Made by a program: the position numbers and the translations under genes. From contig JAIRNH010000016.1 of NCBI GenBank assembly GCA_031258155.1, positions 1 to 33,807 of the forward strand: a stretch of 33,807 nucleotides of DNA. Reading direction: 5' to 3'. Shown one piece after another: positions 10,028 through 28,957 of this stretch; within the stretch, counting starts at the first letter, position 1; every line of letters begins with the position of its first letter. The notes under the pieces are model-generated. The model saw nothing but the letters and a program-made list of their open reading frames with translations, was not told where the DNA came from and made no database searches. Origin of the DNA: Helicobacteraceae bacterium. GTDB lineage: Bacteria; Campylobacterota; Campylobacteria; Campylobacterales; SZUA-545.

Positions 10028-11134
10028 CTAACTAAACGCCCGTCTGATCGTCGCCGCTATAAGCGCTAGATCATCCTCGCTCATTGCCGTCCCGCTTGGC
10101 AAGCACAAGCCTTTATCAAAGAGCTTTTGACTTACGCCGTTCAGGAGTTTTCGCGCCTCTTTGAAAACCGGTTGAAGATGCATAGGCTTCCACAGCGGAC
10201 GCGATTCTATATTCTCTTTTTCAAGCGCCAGCCTTAATCGTTCGGGCGTAACGTCTTTATCCTCGATCGTAATCGTAGAAAGCCAGCGATTGCCTCGCGC
10301 GGGAGCCAACTCCGGCATAAACTCAATCGGCAGATCGCTTAGCGCGCGGCGATAAAACTCAAAGATTTCGCGTTTTCTTTTAACTCGATCGGCTAACACT
10401 CGCATCTGTCCCCGCCCTATTCCGGCGACGATATTGCTCATTCGATAGTTATAACCGATCTCGCGATGTTCGTAATGCGGCGCGTTTTCCCTCGCCTGCG
10501 TAGCGAAAAATAGCGCCTTTTTGATCGGCGCCTCCTCGCTCGCGACCAACGCGCCGCCGCCGCTTGTGGTAATAATCTTGTTGCCGTTAAACGAATAGAC
10601 GCCAAAGCGCGCGATCGCGCCGCAATACGCGCCGCGCCAACTTGCGCCTAACGCCTCGGCGGCGTCCTCGATCAACGTCACGCCGTAGCGTTCGCATATC
10701 TCGCAAATCGCGTCCATATCCGCCGACTGCCCGTATAGATGAACGAGGACAAGCGCCTTAGGCGCGCGCTTTTTGCAAAGCTCCTCTAGCAAATTTGGAT
10801 CGAGATTCCAGCTCTTTTCTTCGCCGTCGATAAAGATAGGCTCGGCGTTTTGAAAGATAATTGGCGAAACCGAACCGATAAAGGTAAAATCGCTGACGGC
10901 TACTAAATCGCCCGCGCCGACGCCCAAAACGCGCAAAGCTAGATGCAGCGCCGCCGTGCCGCTTGAAACGCCTAGCGCGTATTTCGCCCCCGTAAAAGTC
11001 TTGAGGTCCTTCTCGAAACCCGTTACGTTTTCGCCTAGCGGCGCGACGTAATTTTTGTCAAACGCCTCGCGTATAAAATTAAGCTCGTCCCCGCCCATAT
11101 GAGGCGGCGACAAGAAAATCCGTTTATTTGCCAT
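10028..11134 (-). CDS. pglE: UDP-4-keto sugar aminotransferase, PglE-like
   Basis: This 368-residue fold-type I PLP aminotransferase of the DegT/DnrJ/EryC1/StrS family closely resembles Campylobacter PglE, which transfers an amino group from glutamate to UDP-4-keto-6-deoxy-GlcNAc in bacillosamine (N-glycan) synthesis. Visible marks are the N-terminal IFLSPPHMGG, the PLP-contacting IEDAAEALGA, the catalytic K186 in SFNGNKIITTSGGG, TQARENAPHYEH and the C-terminal LCLPSGTAMS. The frame is open up to a TTG at 11170, but the ATG at 11134 is preferred because the protein then begins just before the family N-terminus and GGGG precedes it. The next minus-strand gene upstream is the PglC-PglD fusion, so three steps of the pathway are nearby. 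The dehydratase pglF is not in the window. Confidence 0.92.
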   Translation of the reverse strand: MANKRIFLSPPHMGGDELNFIREAFDKNYVAPLGENVTGFEKDLKTFTGAKYALGVSSGTAALHLALRVLGVGAGDLVAVSDFTFIGSVSPIIFQNAEPIFIDGEEKSWNLDPNLLEELCKKRAPKALVLVHLYGQSADMDAICEICERYGVTLIEDAAEALGASWRGAYCGAIARFGVYSFNGNKIITTSGGGALVASEEAPIKKALFFATQARENAPHYEHREIGYNYRMSNIVAGIGRGQMRVLADRVKRKREIFEFYRRALSDLPIEFMPELAPARGNRWLSTITIEDKDVTPERLRLALEKENIESRPLWKPMHLQPVFKEARKLLNGVSQKLFDKGLCLPSGTAMSEDDLALIAATIRRAFS

Positions 11135-11541
11135 AACCCCGCGCCAAAATAAATTATCGATAGCATACAATAAACGCCCAAATCGCTAACGGCTCGCGCA
11201 AATGCAAGGACGAAACCGACGCGAAGCGTCGTTTGCCCTTGGCTAGAGGCGATCTCGCCCTAGCCTAGCGCGAATTTGCCTATAGCGGAATAAACGCGCG
11301 GTCGTTAGATAACGCGCCTATCGCCAAGCGCGATTTTTTATCGCGAGCGTTTTGTCAAAGCGCGTCGGATACAATAAAAACCGTTTCATTTGTCGCTATG
11401 CGCGACATTGCTTACGGAATGCGCAATATAACGGAAAACTCCGATCAAAACGGACGAGAGCTGTTTATAGCTAATTATCCAGTCGAAGTTTAAAGAAAAA
11501 TGTCCGAAAAAAAAGCGATCGGACGCTATTTTCATAATACG
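11135..11541. other. Intergenic stretch between pglE and pglCD
   Basis: About 400 bases without a supported gene. It holds a hairpin (GACGC-GAA-GCGTC near 11216) and a short plus-strand frame starting at ATG 11398 and running 31 codons to a TAA near 11493. That frame could extend upstream without a stop, but it has no ribosome-binding site, so I do not call it a gene. The promoter for pglE should lie here on the minus strand. TATGCT near 11163 is the best -10 I can find and it is weak. Confidence 0.4.
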
Positions 11542-12753
11542 TTAAAACGGGGTTTTGGCGATCTCGCGAGCGGGAACGCCAACCGCCGTAGCGAACGGCG
11601 CGATCTCGCCCGACACGACCGCGCCCGCGCCGATAACCGCCGATTCGCCGACGATCGCGTTTTGCGTCAGCGAAGCGCCTATCCCTATATGCGCTAACGC
11701 TCCGACCTTAGCGCCGCCCGCGAGCGCCGCGTTAGGCGCGATATGCGCGTATGCGCCGACGACGCAATCGTGTTCTACGATCGCGCCTGAATTAACAATC
11801 GCGCCCTCCTCTATCCGCGCGCGATCGTTGATTACGGCGTTTGGAAAAACAACCGCGCCTTCGCCGATATGCGCCGACGGGCTTATTATTGCGGAGGGAT
11901 CGATTAGAGCGATAATTTTCGCGCCCTCTTTTTGCAAAAATCCCGCGATCGCTTGGCGCGCTCTGTTATCGCCGACGCCAAGCGCCGCGCTGAAACGCTC
12001 GATTCGCGCCTTTTGCAAAAACGTCTCGCGGCTTACGCCTTTCGACGGGTCGTCGTCGATAAAGCCCTCGATCCTAAGCCCAATTCGTCTCGCCGTATCC
12101 GCCGCCACGCGCCCGTGCCCGCCGCCGCCGTAGATAAAAACGCGATCGCCCTCGCCCAAAAACGGCTCTTTCGTCGCGACGTTTTTATCGCTTACGCCCT
12201 CTCGTTTTAAGACCCTGAAAGCCGTCAGAGCCGCGATCTTAAGATCAAGCCAAAAACTTAGATTTCGCGCGTAAAAAACGTCGTATTCAAAGCGTTTTTG
12301 CCAACTTTGCGCGTTGCGCCCGTTTATCTGCGCCAGCCCCGTTATGCCGGGTCTGACCCCGTGGCGCTCGGCTTGAAAAGCGTTGTAGCGCGGCAGATAC
12401 TCTATCAAGAGCGGGCGCGGTCCTATAAAACTCATATCCCCGCGCAACACGTTAAATAGTTGCGGCAATTCGTCTAAGCTAAGCGATCGCAAAACGCGCC
12501 CGAACCTCGTCAGCCGCTCCTCGTCGCTTAACAATTCGCCCGCCTGATCGCGCCGATCGTTCATCGTTCTAAACTTATAGATCGTAAATGGTTTTGCGCC
12601 TAAACCAGGTCTAACCTGCTTAAACAACGCGGGGCTTCCGAGCTTAAAGCGGACGATTAACGCCGTAAGCGCGATAACGGGAGAAAAAACAATCAGCAAA
12701 ATTAGCGCGGCGAGACGATCAAATAGCGGTTTAATGAGGCGGCGGTAAAGCAT
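11542..12753 (-). CDS. PglC-PglD fusion: phosphoglycosyl transferase plus acetyltransferase
   Basis: This single 403-residue chain combines two enzymes of bacillosamine-based N-glycan synthesis. Residues 1 to about 197 are a small monotopic phosphoglycosyl transferase like PglC: a re-entrant membrane helix at about 12-35, the catalytic Asp-Glu dyad D94-E95 in [10 protein letters not shown], and GPRPLL. It moves a phospho-sugar from UDP to undecaprenyl phosphate. Residues about 204-403 match PglD, the acetyl-CoA-dependent N-acetyltransferase: a Rossmann-like start ([11 protein letters not shown]) and a left-handed beta-helix of hexapeptide repeats with the general-base histidine H328 in VEHDC. 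Campylobacter jejuni has these as separate genes, while Neisseria PglB is a comparable fusion. It is divergent from rqcH, with only 40 bases between the starts. Confidence 0.92.
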
Positions 12754-15278: not shown

Positions 15279-16435
15279 TGGAAAATATCGTTCTTTTAAC
15301 GGCGCTCTCCGCGCTTATTATGATTTCGCCGTTTTTGTCGCGCGTAAGCGGTCTTCCCGTGGCGGTAACCGAAATTATGCTCGGCGCGATCGCGTCGTTT
15401 TTCGGCTTTTTCGCCGAAGGCGGCGAGCTCTTTGATTCAATAGCGAAAGTCGGTTTCTTGTATCTGATGTTTTTAGCGGGAATGGAGGTCGAGCTAAGAG
15501 AGTTCGGCGCAATAAAAAAGTCGTTATGGCGGCGGATCTCCGTGTTTTTTATAATCCTCTACGCGCTGGCGATTGCGATCGCCTTTTCATTCGGGCTTTC
15601 GCCCATCTATATCGCCGCCCTGCCTACGATCTCGGTGGGTATGATCGCGGTTTTGATTCACGCGCGCGGCAGAAGCGAATGGCTGATCTTTGGCTTGAAG
15701 CTGGGCGTTGTAGGCGAGCTTATCAGTATCTGCGTTTTAACCGTTTTGAGCGCTTTCGTCCAACTTGAGGGCTTTAATTTTTCATTTTTGCAGACTATGG
15801 CGACGCTGCTCTTCGTGTTGATATGCGTATGGCTGTTTTTTTATATCTCAGCCGCGCTGTTTTGGTGGTTTCCAAAACTGAAAAAATTGATTATGCCCGA
15901 TCAAGACAGTTTAGACGAAGACGTTCGCGTGGCGTTCGCGCTCTTTTTCGCGCTCGTAGCCGCCGCGATCTATTTGGATTTGGAGCTTGTTTTGGGCGCG
16001 TTCGTGGCTGGAATGTTTATAGCAAACTATTTTGATCACAAAGCCGATCTGCCGAAAAAACTAGGTTCGCTCGGCTTTGGATTTTTAACGCCGATATTCT
16101 TTTTGTATGTCGGCGGAACGCTTGATTTGCGGCTTATAACGCAGCTAGATATAGTCGGCAAAGCCGCCTTGATATTGCTGGCGATGACCTCCATTCGCGT
16201 TATCGCCTCGTTTGTCGCCTTTAGACCGACTTTTAGCGCGATCGAGCGGCTACAGGTGGGGTTATCGCAGTCGATGCCGCTTACCTTTTTGGTGGCGATC
16301 GCCACGATCGGGCATAACGCGCGGCTATTAAGCGAGAGCGAATACGCGGCGTTTATCGTAGCGAGTATGGCGGAGGCGGCGCTAATTATGCTCGTTATAA
16401 AATGGCTGGACGGCAAAAGGGCGGTTGAAAAATGA
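15278..16435 (+). CDS. Kef/CPA2-type cation:proton antiporter
   Basis: This 385-residue inner-membrane protein has about 11-12 hydrophobic helices covering its whole length and looks like the Na+/H+ (or K+/H+) exchanger domain of the CPA2 family. LMFLAGMEVELREF is the helix-3 region typical of Kef-like transporters. No C-terminal TrkA-N/RCK regulatory domain is present, so it is the membrane domain alone. The cation cannot be told from sequence. The GTG start at 15278 overlaps the cdsA stop. The gene ends overlapping the next gene by 4 bases (ATGA), so cdsA, the antiporter and the porin form one unit. Confidence 0.88.
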   Translation: MENIVLLTALSALIMISPFLSRVSGLPVAVTEIMLGAIASFFGFFAEGGELFDSIAKVGFLYLMFLAGMEVELREFGAIKKSLWRRISVFFIILYALAIAIAFSFGLSPIYIAALPTISVGMIAVLIHARGRSEWLIFGLKLGVVGELISICVLTVLSAFVQLEGFNFSFLQTMATLLFVLICVWLFFYISAALFWWFPKLKKLIMPDQDSLDEDVRVAFALFFALVAAAIYLDLELVLGAFVAGMFIANYFDHKADLPKKLGSLGFGFLTPIFFLYVGGTLDLRLITQLDIVGKAALILLAMTSIRVIASFVAFRPTFSAIERLQVGLSQSMPLTFLVAIATIGHNARLLSESEYAAFIVASMAEAALIMLVIKWLDGKRAVEK

Positions 16436-17091
16436 TAGGTAGATTTTTGATTGTCTTATTACTCGCCGCAAACTCGCTTGCGGCGGCGGGTTTTAGCGGC
16501 ATGATCGGATACAAAAACGATTATATATTTCGCGGCGTTACGCAAACCAACCGCAAAAGCGCGTTGCAAGGCGCTCTTCGCTACGGCTTTGAGAGCGGCT
16601 TTTATCTAGGCGCGTTCGGTTCTAACGTTTATGACGAGAAAAAGAGGGCGGCTAACGCGATCCAATACGATTTTTCCGGCGGTTATCTAGGCGAAGCGGG
16701 CGATATTTGGTTCGAGGCGGGCGCGATTAGCCGCAACTACACGATTGACGACGCGAACCATATCGAGGCGCTTTTCGCGGTTGGATACGACGGTTTTCGT
16801 TTGGCTTACTACGATATTGTCGCGGCGGATAACCGAGATCGCGAGGGCGATCGCTATATCGAGGCGAGCGTCGATTTCTACGAGGCTTGGGGGGTAATCG
16901 ATATTGGTTTCGGCGCGGGTTACGGACTGCCAAACGATCGCGAAGCCGACGCTTCCTTAGACCTATTTGTTTCGCTTGGCAAAACCTTTTGGCGAAAGCT
17001 GAAAGTAGGCGCGAGCTCCGAAATATACGCCCCGAACGCGAAGGAGTTTGAAAAAGCCCGCTTCGTCGTTTTTGCCCGCCAATCGTTTTAA
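16432..17091 (+). CDS. TorF-family (Gcw_chp) putative outer-membrane protein
   Basis: This 219-residue protein carries a signal peptide (hydrophobic core about 4-16, likely cleaved after an Ala near 19). The mature part begins with FSGMIGYKNDYIFRGVTQT, characteristic of the TorF/Gcw_chp family of putative porins. Alternating aromatic and glycine-rich short strands run through it, and it ends in a C-terminal aromatic (ARQSF), as expected for an outer-membrane beta-barrel. Function in this family is poorly known. The start overlaps the antiporter stop by 4 bases. About 110 bases then separate it from the ACP/FkbH cassette. Confidence 0.82.
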   Translation: MIGRFLIVLLLAANSLAAAGFSGMIGYKNDYIFRGVTQTNRKSALQGALRYGFESGFYLGAFGSNVYDEKKRAANAIQYDFSGGYLGEAGDIWFEAGAISRNYTIDDANHIEALFAVGYDGFRLAYYDIVAADNRDREGDRYIEASVDFYEAWGVIDIGFGAGYGLPNDREADASLDLFVSLGKTFWRKLKVGASSEIYAPNAKEFEKARFVVFARQSF

Positions 17092-17200
17092 GCGTTTCGC
17101 CTTCGCGAGATAAAAACTTTGAAGGGTGTAAAGACAACGCGACAATGCACGGCAACCCCGCAAGAAATATGGGAACGTTTGAATAGACAAAAGGAATAAA

Positions 17201-17425
17201 GTGAAAGAAAAACTAGTCAAAATTCTATCGGCGGTATTAGGCAAAGAGGTTAGCGCGGATAAAGATATTTCAATGCAGAGCGAACCGCTATGGGATTCCA
17301 TAAGACATATAGAGATTATAATGACCGTGGAAGAAGAGTTTAATATCGCCTTCGCAACCGAGGATATTCCATATCTGACCTCAAAAAGCGAGATCGAGCA
17401 AAAACTTTTGGAGCTTGGACTTTGA
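17201..17425 (+). CDS. Acyl carrier protein (cassette copy 1)
   Basis: This 74-residue acidic helical carrier protein has the phosphopantetheine attachment serine S33 in the motif WDSIRHIEII. It is not the housekeeping AcpP, whose motif is usually DSLDTVE, and its position directly before an FkbH-like gene suggests it carries the glyceryl unit. The start is GTG at 17201 with AAGGA 7 bases upstream. Its final codons overlap the TTG start of the next gene, so the two are translationally coupled. Confidence 0.92.
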   Translation: MKEKLVKILSAVLGKEVSADKDISMQSEPLWDSIRHIEIIMTVEEEFNIAFATEDIPYLTSKSEIEQKLLELGL

Positions 17426-18999
17426 TCGCGTCCGTTTTCGCCAAAGAGCTAAGGCGGCTCGATCTCTTATCCGCCGCAAAAAATGAATCTGCTAAAAACA
17501 TAACGATTAGCGTTCATAGAAATCACGCTTTTGAAGCGGTAGCGTCGGTATTAAACGCGTTTCTTAACTTCGCCGGACTAGAGGCAAAGTTTCTCTATAG
17601 CGCTTACGACGATTCGCTGACCTTTTCCGAACTAACAAACGGCGATCTGCATTTGATATATCTTGATTTAGCCAGATATAAAACAAACGATATAGGCGCT
17701 TTCTTAAACGAGCGCGCCGCCATGTTAAGATCAAAAACCGCGTCACCGATCCTAATCGTCGTTCTCGACGATCAAAACCCTATCGATTCGCAATTTGACG
17801 TAAGCGACTGCTTTGTTTTCTCAATAGCGCCTATCATAAACGAACTGGGCGAATCGGCATATGATCTGGCTAAGGAGAGCTATAGCGGCTCGCGCTTATC
17901 GAATAAAGCCGCTCTTGAAATAGCCAGATATTTAGGCTTAAAGCTGATTCCCGCGCTCATATTAACGCCGTTAAAGGCGATTGTTTGCGATCTCGATAAC
18001 ACGCTATATCAGGGCGTATTGGGCGAAGACGGCGCGGATAATCTCGCGCCAAACCTAGCTCTCCAAAAAGAGATAAAAAGGTTAAAAGAGAGCGGATTTC
18101 TTATAGCGCTCGCGTCTAAAAACGAAGAGAGCGACGCGCGGCAAATGTTTGAAAAGCGTTCCGACTTTTTATTAACGTTTGACGATTTCGCCGCCACCGA
18201 GATCAATTGGAATAGCAAACGCGAAAATATAATCAACATCGCCAAAACGCTTAATATAGGCATAGACGCTATGCTTTTTATCGACGATAATCCCGCTGAA
18301 ATTCAGAACGTCGAAAGCGTTGGAATTAAAACAATTCTAGCGGCGGACGAAGAGAGCGCGTTAAGGCAGCTTAAACTTTACCCCGGACTTATGAAACTGC
18401 AAATTTCAGCCGAAGACGCGTTGCGAACAAAAGATACGCAAGCAAACCAAGAGCGCGTTAGATTAGCGCGAGAATACTCGCAAAAAGAATACTTTGAAAA
18501 ACTAGGCGTTACATTGCGTTTTTGCGTAAATAACCGCGAACAGATTGCAAGAGTATCCGAGCTATTTGGTAAGACAAACCAGTTTATTCTTACCTATAAA
18601 AGATATAACAAAAGCGAAGTCAAAGCGTTTATGGAATCGCCAAAGAGCTGCATCATTACAATCGCTATGAGCGATAATCTTTCAGATAGCGGAATTATAG
18701 CTATTTTAGCCGCCAGCAAAAAAGACGAAGCGCTGGAGCTAGACGAAATGACGGTAAGCTGCAGGGCTTTGGGCAGGAACATTGAAAACATAGCGTTGCC
18801 CTTTATGTTTGATCTCGCGGCAAAACGGTTAAAAACCAAAAACGAAATTATCGTTAATTACAAAAAGGGCGAGCGCAACGCTCCGGCGCTCGCCTATCTA
18901 GCCACGCTAACCGACCAAACCTTGCTAGAGGTCGGCTCTTTTGTCTATAGCATACCCAAAGCGATCAATGTTGAAGGCATAGAGATAACTATCGAATGA
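17422..18999 (+). CDS. FkbH-like HAD-family glyceryl-ACP synthase
   Basis: This 525-residue protein has an N-terminal region of about 180 residues, a HAD-superfamily phosphatase-like domain (about 183-330) with the nucleophile motif DLDNT (D190, D192) followed by GVLGEDG and FIDDNPAE, and a C-terminal GNAT-like region (about 370-525). FkbH-type enzymes take a glyceryl group from 1,3-bisphosphoglycerate, drop the phosphate and load the glyceryl onto an ACP. C. jejuni encodes such a protein (Cj1302) between ACP and FabH genes in its flagellin-modification locus. The start is TTG at 17422, supported by GGAG 8 bases upstream and by overlap with the ACP stop. Substrate use here is inferred. Confidence 0.85.
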   Translation: MIASVFAKELRRLDLLSAAKNESAKNITISVHRNHAFEAVASVLNAFLNFAGLEAKFLYSAYDDSLTFSELTNGDLHLIYLDLARYKTNDIGAFLNERAAMLRSKTASPILIVVLDDQNPIDSQFDVSDCFVFSIAPIINELGESAYDLAKESYSGSRLSNKAALEIARYLGLKLIPALILTPLKAIVCDLDNTLYQGVLGEDGADNLAPNLALQKEIKRLKESGFLIALASKNEESDARQMFEKRSDFLLTFDDFAATEINWNSKRENIINIAKTLNIGIDAMLFIDDNPAEIQNVESVGIKTILAADEESALRQLKLYPGLMKLQISAEDALRTKDTQANQERVRLAREYSQKEYFEKLGVTLRFCVNNREQIARVSELFGKTNQFILTYKRYNKSEVKAFMESPKSCIITIAMSDNLSDSGIIAILAASKKDEALELDEMTVSCRALGRNIENIALPFMFDLAAKRLKTKNEIIVNYKKGERNAPALAYLATLTDQTLLEVGSFVYSIPKAINVEGIEITIE

Positions 19000-19403
19000 T
19001 CGATCTGAAATTTCATCATATTGGCGTCGCCACAAAAAGTATCGAGCGAGAGTTTAGCGTTTTTGAGGCGCTTGGCTACAGGAAAGTTTCAGAAACATTT
19101 ATAGACGAAGAGCAAAGAATACGCGGGCTTTTTATAGAGGGACGACGCGGCGCCCCAGCTCTTGAGTTACTAGAGGACTTAGACGAGCGAGGTCCGCTCG
19201 CCGCTATATTAAAAAATCATATTAAGTTTTATCATTTCGCATACGAAACCGACAATATTGAATCAGACTCGCGCAAAATTATCTCCTCGCTAAAAGCGAT
19301 TATGATTGTTCCAATAGTTAATGCGACATATTTTGAAAAGATATGTTTTCTCGCGCTAAGAAATCAAGCGCTTATTGAACTAGTCCAACTAAAAGGGAGC
19401 TAA
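18996..19403 (+). CDS. VOC-family protein, methylmalonyl-CoA epimerase-like
   Basis: This 135-residue protein has the two beta-alpha-beta-beta-beta modules of the vicinal-oxygen-chelate fold. The metal ligands expected for the epimerase branch can be placed: H8 (HHIGVA), E57 (LELLE), H80 (FYHFAYETD) and E128 (LIELVQ). Relatives act on acyl-CoA or acyl-ACP thioesters by removing a proton next to the carbonyl. In this cassette it could epimerise or otherwise rearrange the ACP-bound acyl unit, which is inference. It overlaps the FkbH stop by 4 bases and is followed directly by the ketoacyl synthase gene. Confidence 0.8.
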   Translation: MIDLKFHHIGVATKSIEREFSVFEALGYRKVSETFIDEEQRIRGLFIEGRRGAPALELLEDLDERGPLAAILKNHIKFYHFAYETDNIESDSRKIISSLKAIMIVPIVNATYFEKICFLALRNQALIELVQLKGS

Positions 19404-20466
19404 ATGGCGTCGGCTAATTTTAACTGCGCCGCCGTAAGAGGGGCGGCTATTACGCTGGGAGAAAACCTCTGTAATTTTGACGACGAACCGTATTATTGGA
19501 ACAATGATCAAAACTTGTTAAAAAGGCTCAAAAAAACTATTGGCTTTGGGTCTCGTTACACCGCAAACGTGGATACTACGACATGCGATTTATGTTTTGA
19601 CGCGGCTAAGCGTTTAATAAACGAAGCAAGTTTATCAAGCGGCGCGTTTGACGCTATCGTATCGGTAACGCAAACGCCCGATTACTATATACCTCAGAAC
19701 GCTCATCTTTTGCACTACAAGCTAGATATGCCAAAAACTGCGATCGCTATCGATATTTGCAACGGTTGCGCGGGCTACATTCAAGGGTTGTATCTGTCGT
19801 TTTCGCTAATAGCGTCGGGGCTTAACCGCATTTTGCTATGCGCGGGGAGATACGCTTAGCAAAACGGTAAACGACAAGGATCACTCGGAATATCCGCTAT
19901 TTTGCGACTGCGGCTCGGCGAGTATAATCGAAAGATGCGATAACGCGCCCGCGACAAGTTTTATAATGCGATCGGATGGATCGGGGTACTCTCGCCTTAT
20001 TAAAAAAGCCGGAGCCTATCGCAATCCGTCTAACGAGCGGACAAAATTGGAGACGATCGACGCCGACGGCTACGTCAGAAGCGAAGAGGACCTGTATATC
20101 AACGGCTTTGAGATATTTAAATTCACAATGAGCGAACAACCGCCCTTGCTAAACGAAGCGATCGCTCTCGCAAACGGCGTGGATTCGGTCGATCTGTTTT
20201 TATTGCATCAAGCCAACCAGCACATAGTATCGACAATCGCAAAATCGGCGAAGATTCCAATGGAAAAAGTCCCGATCATATTTCCAAGATACGGCAATCA
20301 AAACGGCTCGTCGATCGTTGGCGTTATTTGCGATAGCGCAGATCTGCTAACAAGCGGCAAATATAGAGTGATCGCGCAGGGTTTTGGCGTTGGACTTTCA
20401 TGGGGCGCTTGCGTAACGACCTTAGATCGAATATGCGCTCTTAAACCGCATATATACCAAAGTTAA
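19404..20466 (+). pseudogene. Ketoacyl-ACP synthase III (FabH-like), frameshifted
   Basis: The first frame (19404-19859, 151 residues) is the N-terminal half of a KAS III enzyme with the catalytic cysteine C122 in ICNGCAGYIQG. It then stops in LLCAGRYA. Shifting frame at the GGGG run near 19846-19849 restores the expected CAGDTLSKTV, and reading continues without a stop to 20466, including the catalytic His (LLHQANQHI) and Asn (YGNQNGSSI). One G too many explains everything; corrected, the protein would be 353 residues, a normal length. KAS III condenses an acyl donor with malonyl-ACP. The change is either a real, recent inactivation or a sequence error. A GGGG run is too short for typical phase variation. 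Confidence 0.88.
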
Positions 20467-20477
20467 AGGAGCAAAAT

Positions 20478-20696
20478 ATGAGCGCGTCGGATTTTATTGT
20501 AAAACTTGCGGACGCATTACAAACCGAAACGCGGTTGGAACCAGAAACAAAACTCGATGATTTAGACGAATACGACTCTTTGGCGAGAATGTCAATCTTG
20601 GCTTTAATGGACCAAGATTACGGCGTGGAGTTATCGCTTGAAGACTTCAAGGCGATCAAAACGGTCGCCGATCTGCTCGCAAAAGTCGGCTTATGA
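20478..20696 (+). CDS. Acyl carrier protein (cassette copy 2)
   Basis: This 72-residue acidic carrier protein has the phosphopantetheine serine S34 in EYDSLARMSI. It differs clearly from the first ACP of the cassette. The start ATG at 20478 is preceded by AAAGGAG. Its stop overlaps the start of the SDR gene by 4 bases (ATGA), so it probably presents the substrate for that reductase or for the ketoacyl synthase just upstream. Confidence 0.92.
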   Translation: MSASDFIVKLADALQTETRLEPETKLDDLDEYDSLARMSILALMDQDYGVELSLEDFKAIKTVADLLAKVGL

Positions 20697-21436
20697 CGAC
20701 GTTTAACGCCGAACGGCGATTTATAGTAACGGGAGCTAGTAGCGGCATTGGCGAAGAGGTCGCTTTGGCTCTTAACGTTTTGGGCGCAAGCGTGATAGCG
20801 ATCGCGCGTAATAGAAAACGTCTGGAAAATATGCGCGAAAAAGCTAAAAATCCCGAACTGATCCTTATACGCGAAAGGGATTTAAGCGCGAATATCGACG
20901 ATCTATCGGATTTTGTTAAATCGCTTAAAGACGAATGCGGCAAATTGGCGGGAATGGCGTATTGCGCCGGCGTATCGTCGCTTGCGCCGCTACGAATATA
21001 TGATCGGAAAGAGGCGCAAAAAGTTTTCGATGTTAACTATTTTGCGCCAATCCAAATGGCAAAAGCCGTTTTAGATAAGAGAAATAATATAGGCGAGCAG
21101 ACCTCGATCGTTTTCATCGCGTCGATCGCGGCGCGTATATGCGACAAATCGCAGCTAATTTACGCGGGTTCCAAAGCGGCGCTGATCGCCTCCGCGCGAT
21201 CTATCGCAAAAGAGGCGGCGGCGCTTAAAATGCGCGTTAATACAATCTCGCCCGCCGATATAGACACGCCTATGACGGCAAAACTCGACGGCATGCGCGA
21301 AGATCGTAAAAAAGCGTATCCGTTCGGCTTTGGCAAAGCGAGCGACGTGGCAAATCTCGCCGTTTTCTTGCTTTCCGATAAAGCGTCGTGGATAACGGGG
21401 CAGGATTACGTTTTGGACGGAGGACTTATCGGGTAG
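20693..21436 (+). CDS. SDR-family 3-oxoacyl-ACP reductase-like
   Basis: This 247-residue classical short-chain dehydrogenase has the NAD(P) motif TGASSGIG (13-20), N115, and the catalytic S144, Y157 and K161 (YAGSK). The C-terminal DVANLAVFLLSDKASWITGQ and DGG are typical of FabG-like reductases. In the cassette it probably reduces a beta-keto group on the ACP made by the ketoacyl synthase. That substrate is inferred from the neighbours, and other alcohol or ketone substrates are possible. It is the last gene of the cassette and abuts the tRNA cluster on the other strand. Confidence 0.88.
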   Translation: MTTFNAERRFIVTGASSGIGEEVALALNVLGASVIAIARNRKRLENMREKAKNPELILIRERDLSANIDDLSDFVKSLKDECGKLAGMAYCAGVSSLAPLRIYDRKEAQKVFDVNYFAPIQMAKAVLDKRNNIGEQTSIVFIASIAARICDKSQLIYAGSKAALIASARSIAKEAAALKMRVNTISPADIDTPMTAKLDGMREDRKKAYPFGFGKASDVANLAVFLLSDKASWITGQDYVLDGGLIG

Positions 21437-21457: not shown

Positions 21458-21545
21458 TGGCGGGCAGGGTGAGATTCGAACTCACGGAGGTTTTACCCTC
21501 GTCGGTTTTCAAGACCGGTGCATTAAACCGCTCTGCCACCTGCCC
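21458..21545 (-). tRNA. tRNA-Ser (anticodon UGA)
   Basis: An 88-base gene including an encoded CCA. The acceptor GGGCAGG pairs with CCTGCCC, the anticodon loop reads CTTGAAA, there is a long variable arm, and the T-loop is TTCGAAT. All serine-type features are in place. Confidence 0.97.
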
Positions 21546-21605
21546 TAGTCGATTAGCCGTAGCCAAAATCGTCGCCGACTTCCAACTCCAATTTTAGAGG
21601 CGATA

Positions 21606-21695
21606 TGGCGGACAGAGAGGGATTCGAACCCTCGATAGGAGTTACCCTATACACGCGTTCCAGGCGTGCGCCTTCAACCGCTCGGCCACCTGTCC
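21606..21695 (-). tRNA. tRNA-Ser (anticodon GGA)
   Basis: A 90-base gene with encoded CCA. The acceptor GGACAGG pairs with TCTGTCC (one G-U pair), the anticodon loop is CTGGAAC, and it has the long variable arm of class II tRNAs. It lies 60 bases from the previous serine tRNA. Confidence 0.97.
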
Positions 21696-21725
21696 TTTTT
21701 TTCGCGCCAAACTAAACTGGGATTT

Positions 21726-21799
21726 TGGAGGCGGCGCCCGGATTCGAACCGGGGGTCAGAGCTTTGCAGGCTCATGCCTTACCGCTTGGCTACGCCGCC
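21726..21799 (-). tRNA. tRNA-Cys (anticodon GCA)
   Basis: A 74-base gene with encoded CCA. The acceptor GGCGGCG pairs with CGCCGCC, the anticodon loop is CTGCAAA, and the T-loop is TTCGAAT. Confidence 0.97.
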
Positions 21800-21841
21800 G
21801 CAGACGCCTCGCGCCATAAATAAACCCAAAATCCGCGAGTA

Positions 21842-21929
21842 TGGTGCCCGAGGCCGGACTTGAACCGGCACGGACGAAACCGTCCTCAGGATTTTAAGTC
21901 CTGTGTGTCTACCATTTCACCACTCGGGC
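21842..21929 (-). tRNA. tRNA-Leu (anticodon UAA)
   Basis: An 88-base gene with encoded CCA. The acceptor GCCCGAG pairs with CTCGGGC, the anticodon loop is CTTAAAA, and it has a long variable arm as expected for leucine. Confidence 0.97.
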
Positions 21930-22061
21930 GCTCGCGCGTTATGTAGGATTTTTATAGTCTGCGGCGCGCTAAAGTTACGCGCTTTCGACTCGTCAAAATC
22001 TCAAAATAGCGCCGCAATTGCAACTAAAGCTACCCGCTTTTTTGCGGTCTGAAAAAAAAAT

Positions 22062-22136
22062 TGGAGCGGGAAACGAGATTCGAACTCGCGACCCCAACCT
22101 TGGCAAGGTTGTGCTCTACCCCTGAGCTATTCCCGC
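22062..22136 (-). tRNA. tRNA-Gly (anticodon GCC)
   Basis: A 75-base gene with encoded CCA. The acceptor GCGGGAA pairs with TTCCCGC, and the anticodon loop is TTGCCAA. It is the first gene of the five-tRNA cluster in transcription order. About 130 bases separate it from the following tRNA-Leu. Confidence 0.97.
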
Positions 22137-27138: not shown

Positions 27139-28127
27139 GACGGCGAGCGGCTCTCGCGTTCGCTTCGTTTATTCTCCTATGCGGTTGTTCTAACCTCGCC
27201 GTTTTTGAACCCGAAACTATCGATGGGCGTTTAAGTTACGACGACAGGCTCGAAGCGCCGATCGTAAAAAGCGCGACGGACGGCGCGTCGTTAGAAAACG
27301 CTCGCGCGCTAAGCCGAAACAAAACGGCGATAGATCGTCTCGAGGACGGATTTTATCTGCTTTCGATCGACGGCAAATACGCGATCGCCGCAGACCGCAA
27401 AGGCGGATTGATCCTCTACGGCGCGGGAGAGCCTAGACGTTTCGCGCTATCCGAAGCGGTTGTTTCGGCGGCAAGCGACGGCGAGATTATAGTCGCCGTA
27501 TCCAAGACAAACGCCTGCCGCATTATAGACGCGTCCGACTCCAAAACGCTTTTCTTCTCGCGCGAAAAGCTCGCGTTAGCCGTCAACGACAAACTAGCCA
27601 AACCCCTGATCGGCAAAGAGCAGACGATTATCCCGACGCTAGACGGAAAACTGCTAATAGTCGATCGCGGCGCAATGAAGATCGTAAAGGAGATCGTAGT
27701 CGGCGACGAGGAGTTTTTCGGCAATATTGTTTTTCTCGCGGAATACGACAAGCGTATAATCGCCGCGATCGACGGCAGAGCGTTATCCATAGCGGCAAAC
27801 GGCGCGTCGCGATCGCGGGACATCGACGCTAGAACGCTCTTAGCGTTGCCAAGCGGACTTTACATATTCTCGCGCGACGGCTCAGTAGAGCGCGTGAGCG
27901 CGACGTTAGAAACGCTCGCCGCGCGCCGCCTACCATACGCGCGTTTTATTGCCGCCGCCGAAAAAAACGGCGCGATCTGGGCTGTGGAGCAGAGCGGTTA
28001 CGCCGTTAAATTTACGGACAATCTTCAAAAAGCAACGATCTACGAACTGCCCGATACGATCCGCGCTCCGATATACGTTGACGATCAAGGCGTATGGCAT
28101 TACGACAAGCTGGTTCGCTGGCAATGA
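27135..28127 (+). CDS. Lipoprotein with BamB-like beta-propeller pattern
   Basis: This 330-residue protein has a lipoprotein signal peptide whose lipobox is LCGC, with C18 as the acylated cysteine. The rest is rich in short beta strands with recurring pieces such as DGKLLIVDRG and GRALSIAANG, consistent with a WD40/PQQ-like propeller as in BamB, a subunit of the outer-membrane protein assembly complex. The pairing with a YfgM-like gene supports this, but sequence similarity to BamB itself is not obvious to me. The GTG start at 27135 overlaps the preceding stop, and the end overlaps the recombinase start by 4 bases. Confidence 0.65.
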   Translation: MRRRAALAFASFILLCGCSNLAVFEPETIDGRLSYDDRLEAPIVKSATDGASLENARALSRNKTAIDRLEDGFYLLSIDGKYAIAADRKGGLILYGAGEPRRFALSEAVVSAASDGEIIVAVSKTNACRIIDASDSKTLFFSREKLALAVNDKLAKPLIGKEQTIIPTLDGKLLIVDRGAMKIVKEIVVGDEEFFGNIVFLAEYDKRIIAAIDGRALSIAANGASRSRDIDARTLLALPSGLYIFSRDGSVERVSATLETLAARRLPYARFIAAAEKNGAIWAVEQSGYAVKFTDNLQKATIYELPDTIRAPIYVDDQGVWHYDKLVRWQ

Positions 28128-28957
28128 GATCGGAGATCGACGCCTATCTGCGCCATTGCAAAACGGTTTTAGCGCTAAGCCGCGCCACGATCAAAGCGTA
28201 TGAGAACGATCTAGCTCAATTCTGCAAGGCGGTAAACAAGCCGCTAAACAGGCTTGATAGCGACGATATTTACGGTTTTCTGGCTTGCTTTGACAACCCG
28301 CGCACGCTTAATCGCAAACTTAGCGCGATTAACGGCTTTTTAGATTGGTGTTACGACAGGCTGCTTAGCGACGAAACGTACAATATCAAAGGCGCGAAAA
28401 TCCCGCGCGGATTACCGAAATACCTATCGTCCGAAATGATCGAGCGCGCGCTTTCAAACGTCGATCAAAGCGGCTGGATCGGCAAGCGCGATTACGCGCT
28501 GATTATGTTTCTATACGCGAGCGGAACGCGAATTAGCGAGGCGCTCAAGGCTCAAACCAACGATATAGAGGGCGGCTGGCTTCGCGTTCGCCATGGAAAA
28601 GGAGCGAAAGAGAGGCTTGTTCCTATCGCGAAACGCGCTCTAATCGCGCTAGATAGCTATATCGCCGATCGCCCGTTTTTTAGCGAGCGGCTGTTTATCA
28701 ACTATACGGGCAGACCGCTTAGCCGCGTTTTCGCCTTTAAGACCACGCAAAGAATCTTGGGCGTTTCGCCGCACGCGTTGCGTCATAGCTTCGCCACTTC
28801 GCTAATCACGGGCGGCGCGGATCTGCGCGTGGTGCAGGAGTTGCTAGGACACGCCAGCTTAAACTCCACGCAAATTTACACTCACTTAGAGCGGAGCTAT
28901 CTGTTAGAGAGCGTAAATCGTTACCACCCGCTAGGAGCGGTTTTAAGGCTTGCCTAG
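28124..28957 (+). CDS. Tyrosine recombinase, Xer-like
   Basis: This is a 277-residue site-specific recombinase with an N-terminal SAM-like core-binding domain (1 to about 90) and a catalytic domain containing the full set R136 (ASGTRISEAL), K159, H217, R220 (HALRHSFAT), H243 (LLGHASL) and the nucleophile Y252 (STQIYTHL). The frame is open from 28094, but the ATG at 28124 overlaps the lipoprotein stop (ATGA) and fits the Xer start. In Campylobacterota a single recombinase, XerH, resolves chromosome dimers, but XerH proteins are about 350 residues. This one has the length of XerC/XerD, so the exact type is open. Its operon setting favours a housekeeping role over a mobile element. Confidence 0.88.
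   Translation: MRSEIDAYLRHCKTVLALSRATIKAYENDLAQFCKAVNKPLNRLDSDDIYGFLACFDNPRTLNRKLSAINGFLDWCYDRLLSDETYNIKGAKIPRGLPKYLSSEMIERALSNVDQSGWIGKRDYALIMFLYASGTRISEALKAQTNDIEGGWLRVRHGKGAKERLVPIAKRALIALDSYIADRPFFSERLFINYTGRPLSRVFAFKTTQRILGVSPHALRHSFATSLITGGADLRVVQELLGHASLNSTQIYTHLERSYLLESVNRYHPLGAVLRLA

Follow-up and report, generated by a model that had tools for sequence, protein, structure and literature searches.

A decaying FkbH cassette for probable acyl decoration of surface sugars in a Helicobacteraceae bacterium, and poly-G tracts in the VOC genes of its relatives

The locus described here is a compact cassette of acyl-synthesis genes located at positions 17201-21436 of a 33,807-nucleotide stretch of DNA, termed the window (assembly GCA_031258155.1, JAIRNH010000016.1, contig 16 of a 1.94-Mb genome), from a Helicobacteraceae bacterium whose kin include the metagenome-assembled genome Helicobacteraceae Im510_bin14 and Campylobacterota bacterium MS502-29, from a series that probably derives from termite guts. 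In Campylobacter jejuni, flagellin bears dimethylglyceryl-pseudaminic acid according to passages of PMC3068675 and PMC7099621, and the passages of the latter record that the dimethylglyceryl sugar was not seen in strain 12664, in which cj1302 (encoding an FkbH protein) is a pseudogene, nor in strain 12661, in which cj1301 (an 'epimerase') is missing. The link from cj1301 and cj1302 to the sugar is drawn here and not in those passages; on these strain data, the dimethylglyceryl group on pseudaminic acid is likely the product of the Cj1299-1304 locus, which supplies candidate genes for its biosynthesis. The known poly-G switch for this sugar in C. jejuni is Cj1295 rather than the VOC gene. The viosamine island of Pseudomonas syringae includes the genes vioS, vioB, vioR and acp, and its vioB and vioR mutants are devoid of the N-3-hydroxybutyryl sugar on flagellin (PMC3927599). 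A literature search on FkbH proteins with flagellin or O-antigen, and on Cj1302-1304, found nothing.

The analysis reveals that the locus is a composite, mobile sugar-acyl system, of which the window copy is a real but decaying member. As a whole, the account that we favour, and regard as reasonably probable, is that of an optional cassette for the hydroxylated acyl decoration of surface sugars, which is broken in the window genome and whose VOC step is phase-variable in seven other Campylobacterota. The cassette harbors six genes on the forward strand, with 4-base overlaps, directly abutting ends or an 11-base gap between neighbours: a first acyl carrier protein (ACP1, 17201-17425), FkbH (17422-18999), VOC (18996-19403), a β-ketoacyl-ACP synthase III (KAS III, in two pieces between 19404 and 20466), a second carrier matching the PP-binding family (ACP2, 20478-20696), and a short-chain dehydrogenase/reductase (SDR, 20693-21436), which is a FabG/VioR-like ketoreductase by family match. 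Family matches and coordinates thus bore out the gene identities and tight packing in the original prediction, the split KAS III being the exception. FkbH scores 304.8 bits against TIGR01686 (cut-off 146.65) and is constructed of a HAD domain and a C-terminal half with the GNAT fold; its HAD Asp pairs D190/D192 and D288/D289, together with Cys447, which we take to be the glyceryl-holding residue, are invariant in 10 homologues. Members of the FkbH family dephosphorylate a glycolytic three-carbon phosphate and put a glyceryl group on an ACP. ACP1, the presumed glyceryl carrier, has a DSI-type phosphopantetheine site and orthologues in the relatives; it falls under the Pfam threshold and matches NCBIfam ACP models weakly.

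A KAS III scan of 84,980 species genomes returned 80 loci. A KAS III-ACP-SDR-NeuD module without FkbH recurs across phyla, including Arcobacter, SAR11, Opitutia and others, and FkbH-ACP1-VOC accompanied by a methyltransferase occurs in C. jejuni, C. coli and relatives; both modules stand together (KAS III-ACP-SDR-NeuD with FkbH-ACP1-VOC) in the family of the window, a yak-colon bacterium and Gastranaerophilales. In the relatives G003, G002 and G013, the last of which belongs to another genus, the first cassette gene encodes a hexapeptide acyltransferase of the NeuD/PglB/VioB type (214-218 amino acids), and the order in intact relatives is NeuD-ACP1-FkbH-VOC-KAS III-ACP2-SDR. The nearest solved structures of this NeuD are VioB and PglD, VioB being the best, and TIGR03570 is by far its best family, although the scores of 116.9 and 105.2 bits miss the cut-off of 160.8. 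Since FdtA and a DegT aminotransferase in locus L029 and NeuB in locus L041 are linked to the relatives' cassettes, an amino-sugar target is indicated. In addition, each cassette of L028 and L029, both from gut bacteria outside Campylobacterota, holds a pair of distinct KAS III genes, which suggests that condensation takes place twice, and an AcpS-type phosphopantetheinyl transferase, perhaps dedicated to the cassette ACPs, lies directly 3' of the cassette in L028 (8052-8402).

On this gene content, a pathway can be proposed in which FkbH would dephosphorylate a glycolytic three-carbon phosphate and load glyceryl on ACP1, and the VOC protein would act on the α-carbon of the 2-hydroxyacyl thioester, most simply by inversion at C2. 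KAS III would then join the glyceryl group with a malonyl unit on ACP2, the SDR would reduce the ketone to give trihydroxypentanoyl-ACP2, and the NeuD/VioB-like protein would use this acyl chain to N-acylate a nucleotide sugar destined for a surface glycan. The prediction that an FkbH/ACP pair for glyceryl loading is joined to KAS III, ACP and SDR, and that this resembles the flagellin locus of C. jejuni, found support in the gene order of C. jejuni and C. coli and in the dimethylglyceryl-pseudaminic acid reported in the passages cited above.

Chain extension is an uncertain step of the window-type cassette too, because the C. jejuni product has three carbons. It is conceivable, although somewhat unlikely, that no extension takes place, that KAS III passes glyceryl from ACP1 to ACP2 in the manner of KAS III-like acyltransferases, that the sugar receives a C3 glyceryl group, and that the SDR acts elsewhere or on the sugar. 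Such a transfer would suit both the C3 dimethylglyceryl group of C. jejuni flagellin, whose locus likewise encodes this KAS III and a second ACP, and three Helicobacteraceae-type loci that lack KAS III and retain ACP1-VOC-FkbH, but the window-type cassette has an SDR beside ACP2, as in the 3-hydroxybutyryl module, and the Cys, His and Asn motifs of KAS III are retained. The widespread KAS III-ACP-SDR-NeuD module without FkbH raises another alternative, namely that the product is plain 3-hydroxybutyryl built on an acetyl starter and that FkbH and VOC are merely co-located and serve another modification. This is unlikely, given that the family copies are interleaved with overlapping genes, FkbH-VOC standing between ACP1 and KAS III, and that, on the tree, window-type KAS IIIs linked to FkbH mostly group together.

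Returning to the extended-glyceryl pathway, the VOC protein (Glyoxalase_4; intact in the window) had been called thioester epimerase-like, and this description stands as regards the superfamily. Its predicted structure (predicted local distance difference test, pLDDT, 91) matches bacterial glyoxalase I with template modelling (TM) scores of 0.85-0.86 and methylmalonyl-CoA epimerase with 0.80, and H8, E57, H80 and E128, the presumed metal ligands, are invariant, so that both the fold and the ligand positions of the VOC superfamily are present. The closer comparison with methylmalonyl-CoA epimerase did not hold: the score against TIGR03081 is 40.7 bits (cut-off 114.95), and the catalytic Glu of that enzyme (E43 in Streptomyces coelicolor) aligns with an invariant Gly44. 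An intact methylmalonyl-CoA epimerase was rejected on both counts.

The genomes G334, G358 and G376, which belong to one other family, taken as Helicobacteraceae-type from its kinship to Helicobacter anseris on the FkbH tree, carry GNAT-ACP1-VOC-FkbH-methyltransferase with no KAS III, ACP2 or SDR alongside. G070 encodes a fusion of VOC with this GNAT transferase, with ACP and FkbH adjacent (L145, 7720-8709). Because VOC persists beside FkbH and ACP without KAS III or SDR, its substrate should precede chain extension and is most likely glyceryl-ACP, a 2-hydroxyacyl thioester resembling the glyoxalase I product; our best guess is that VOC may be a C2 epimerase. The GNAT of the L145 fusion also occurs as a separate gene beside VOC/FkbH in L029 and L141-L143.

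Surveyed at one genome per species, seven of the 15 Campylobacterota cassettes with a stand-alone VOC gene contain a poly-G tract of 9-16 G in that gene: 11 G in G003, 14 in G013, 9 in Campylobacter volucris, 11 in H. anseris, 10 in G358, 13 in G376 and 16 in G334. In all seven, the two halves of the gene lie in different frames, that is, every copy is off. These VOC genes of relatives show the features of contingency genes, a long mononucleotide run within the coding sequence and a broken frame. Two tract positions occur, that of G003 being apart from the other six, and tract presence requires at least four changes on the FkbH tree. Across the cassette and nearby families, VOC accounts for 7 of the 14 genes that bear a tract and for 8.8% of the bases (binomial P ~8e-5, or ~3e-4 if counted as four of five independent gains in VOC, values that ignore the shared ancestry of three of the seven tract genomes and the poly-G background). 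The VOC genes of the window, G002, C. jejuni and C. coli are free of such a tract, and no description of one in the VOC gene of an FkbH cassette was found in the literature searched.

The tract most likely makes the VOC step, and not the whole pathway, phase-variable, so that these bacteria may switch the decoration randomly, and one small enzyme emerges as a repeated target of on/off switching. As all seven tract-bearing VOC genes are off, the data also suggest that the other cassette genes, whatever their function, do not need VOC. A bolder and decidedly doubtful extension is that VOC would invert C2 of glyceryl-ACP, so that poly-G slippage would be a random switch for the stereochemistry of the acyl group on a surface sugar, beyond turning that group on and off, and would have arisen several times in Campylobacterota. 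If it is VOC that sets the configuration, bacteria would be varying the chirality of a group displayed at their surface, where hosts and phages may sense it. Poly-G phase variation in the window itself was rejected, since runs of seven or more G or C are absent from the whole 33.8 kb. The whole window genome, searched on both strands, gives 390 overlapping matches to nine G in a row, and the species likely has many contingency loci elsewhere.

The original prediction had described the cassette as self-contained and lacking an acyltransferase, and neither statement could be upheld for the cassette as a type. The relatives open with the NeuD/VioB-like gene, of which the last 21 codons and the stop remain in the window as a stub (17121-17186); it aligns to the 3' ends of the 214-amino-acid genes of G003 (L014) and G002 (L015), and BLAST homology resumes at 17122 against both. 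No close second NeuD copy was found in the window genome, the best match being 25% identical. In addition, KAS III is frameshifted: an open reading frame at 19404-19859 holds the N-terminal half with the catalytic Cys, and the C-terminal half with the HQAN and YGNQNG motifs lies in another frame at about 19849-20466. The Cys-His-Asn motifs are all kept but are spread over two frames, whereas the KAS III of G003 is intact (352 amino acids); the contig of G002 stops within this gene. The break falls in a run of four G, too short for the contingency tract that was considered and rejected, and programmed frameshifting was likewise rejected because the homologue is single-frame and inspection by eye found no known signal. 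The VioS/VioB/VioR/ACP module is therefore complete in G003 and G013 and incomplete in the window, where the transferase is deleted. From the transferase deletion and the KAS III frameshift, we conclude that the copy is decaying and probably makes its product no longer. The ratio of nonsynonymous to synonymous substitution (dN/dS) of the window genes against relatives, leaving out the KAS III C-terminal comparisons that involve the window, is ~0.08-0.21 and no higher than between intact copies; this points to a recent loss, and the window shows a cassette of this type caught being lost.

The unrelaxed dN/dS could also be read in favour of a copy that still functions, with an erroneous KAS III break in the assembly and another transferase replacing NeuD, such as the PglD-like half of a PglC-PglD fusion 4.5 kb upstream. 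We consider this improbable, because one cassette would carry two separate lesions and the only NeuD-like matches in the genome are those at 25% identity.

The locus is an optional, AT-rich cassette with a porin gene on one side and tRNA genes on the other. Its left flank is a TorF-family porin gene (16432-17091, forward strand), kept in members of the genus whether or not they carry the cassette, and its right flank is a cluster of five tRNA genes (21458-22136, reverse strand). The cassette was found in two of six other genus members searched, G003 and G002, that of G003 at the same site between porin and tRNA cluster. In G001, both flanks are present and the cassette is absent, with about 145 bases from the tRNA gene end to the end of the porin match (L023, 8792-8935). 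The cassette was correctly predicted to be AT-richer than its flanks: its G+C content is 45.4% vs 52.1% for the remaining window, 106 equally long stretches from other parts of the window span 49.9-54.0% with none near its value, and the 22 G/C among the 60 bases from 19261 were exact on recount. Comparison of the cassette ends for repeats gave no clear flanking direct repeat.

Some further features of the surroundings were recorded. The tRNA cluster is an insertion hot spot, with 3.2 kb of unrelated genes between two tRNA-Ser genes in G001 (L023, 5497-8704). In the window, a Xer-like tyrosine recombinase lies at 28094-28957, with genes of unknown function on one side and a type III pantothenate kinase on the other; the fusion of a PglC-type sugar transferase and a PglD-type acetyltransferase occupies 11542-12753 on the reverse strand, and a LegC/PglE-like aminotransferase 10028-11170. 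At the contig end in L016 (17946-18206), part of the FkbH gene is repeated and runs on into other sequence, which probably reflects faulty assembly. Tetronate clusters typically combine FkbH, ACP and KAS III, but a tetronate-type natural-product route with a ring-forming KAS III is highly improbable and was rejected, as no polyketide synthase lies near the cassette in the window and the relatives' neighbours are sugar-nucleotide enzymes and NeuD-type sugar acyltransferases.

Several observations weigh against the favoured account of an extended, sugar-bound acyl group with a switchable epimerase. Between C. jejuni strain 11168 and strains 12661 and 12664, further genes differ too, and the three-carbon product of C. 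jejuni implies that its KAS III either leaves glyceryl unextended or has some other role. The invariant Gly44 stands where the epimerase would have its catalytic Glu, and Campylobacter cassettes without VOC exist (L138, L140, L144 and L075). Part of the tract enrichment is background, as several tract-bearing genomes are poly-G-rich throughout, and the KAS III frameshift could be an assembly error.

Compared with known systems, the cassette joins two known sugar-acyl routes in one composite pathway. Like C. jejuni Cj1299-Cj1304, it has ACP, VOC (Cj1301), FkbH (Cj1302), KAS III and a second ACP in one run, but the C. jejuni locus possesses a methyltransferase, is without an adjacent SDR or NeuD, and is ordered ACP-methyltransferase-VOC-FkbH-KAS III-ACP, as in C. 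coli; lacking a methyltransferase, the window cassette is not a dimethylglyceryl locus of the C. jejuni type. With the P. syringae viosamine island, it shares a KAS III, an ACP, an SDR and a VioB-type transferase that make an acyl group and transfer it to an amino sugar, whereas the island is without FkbH, VOC and a second ACP, and its vioA, vioM and vioT are not found beside the window cassette. VOC shares its fold and the four H/E/H/E ligand positions with methylmalonyl-CoA epimerase and bacterial glyoxalase I, but differs from the former in not reaching the TIGR03081 cut-off and in the glycine that replaces the catalytic Glu. Finally, the VOC genes of the relatives resemble the poly-G contingency genes of Campylobacter and Helicobacter in carrying a long G tract within an out-of-frame coding sequence.

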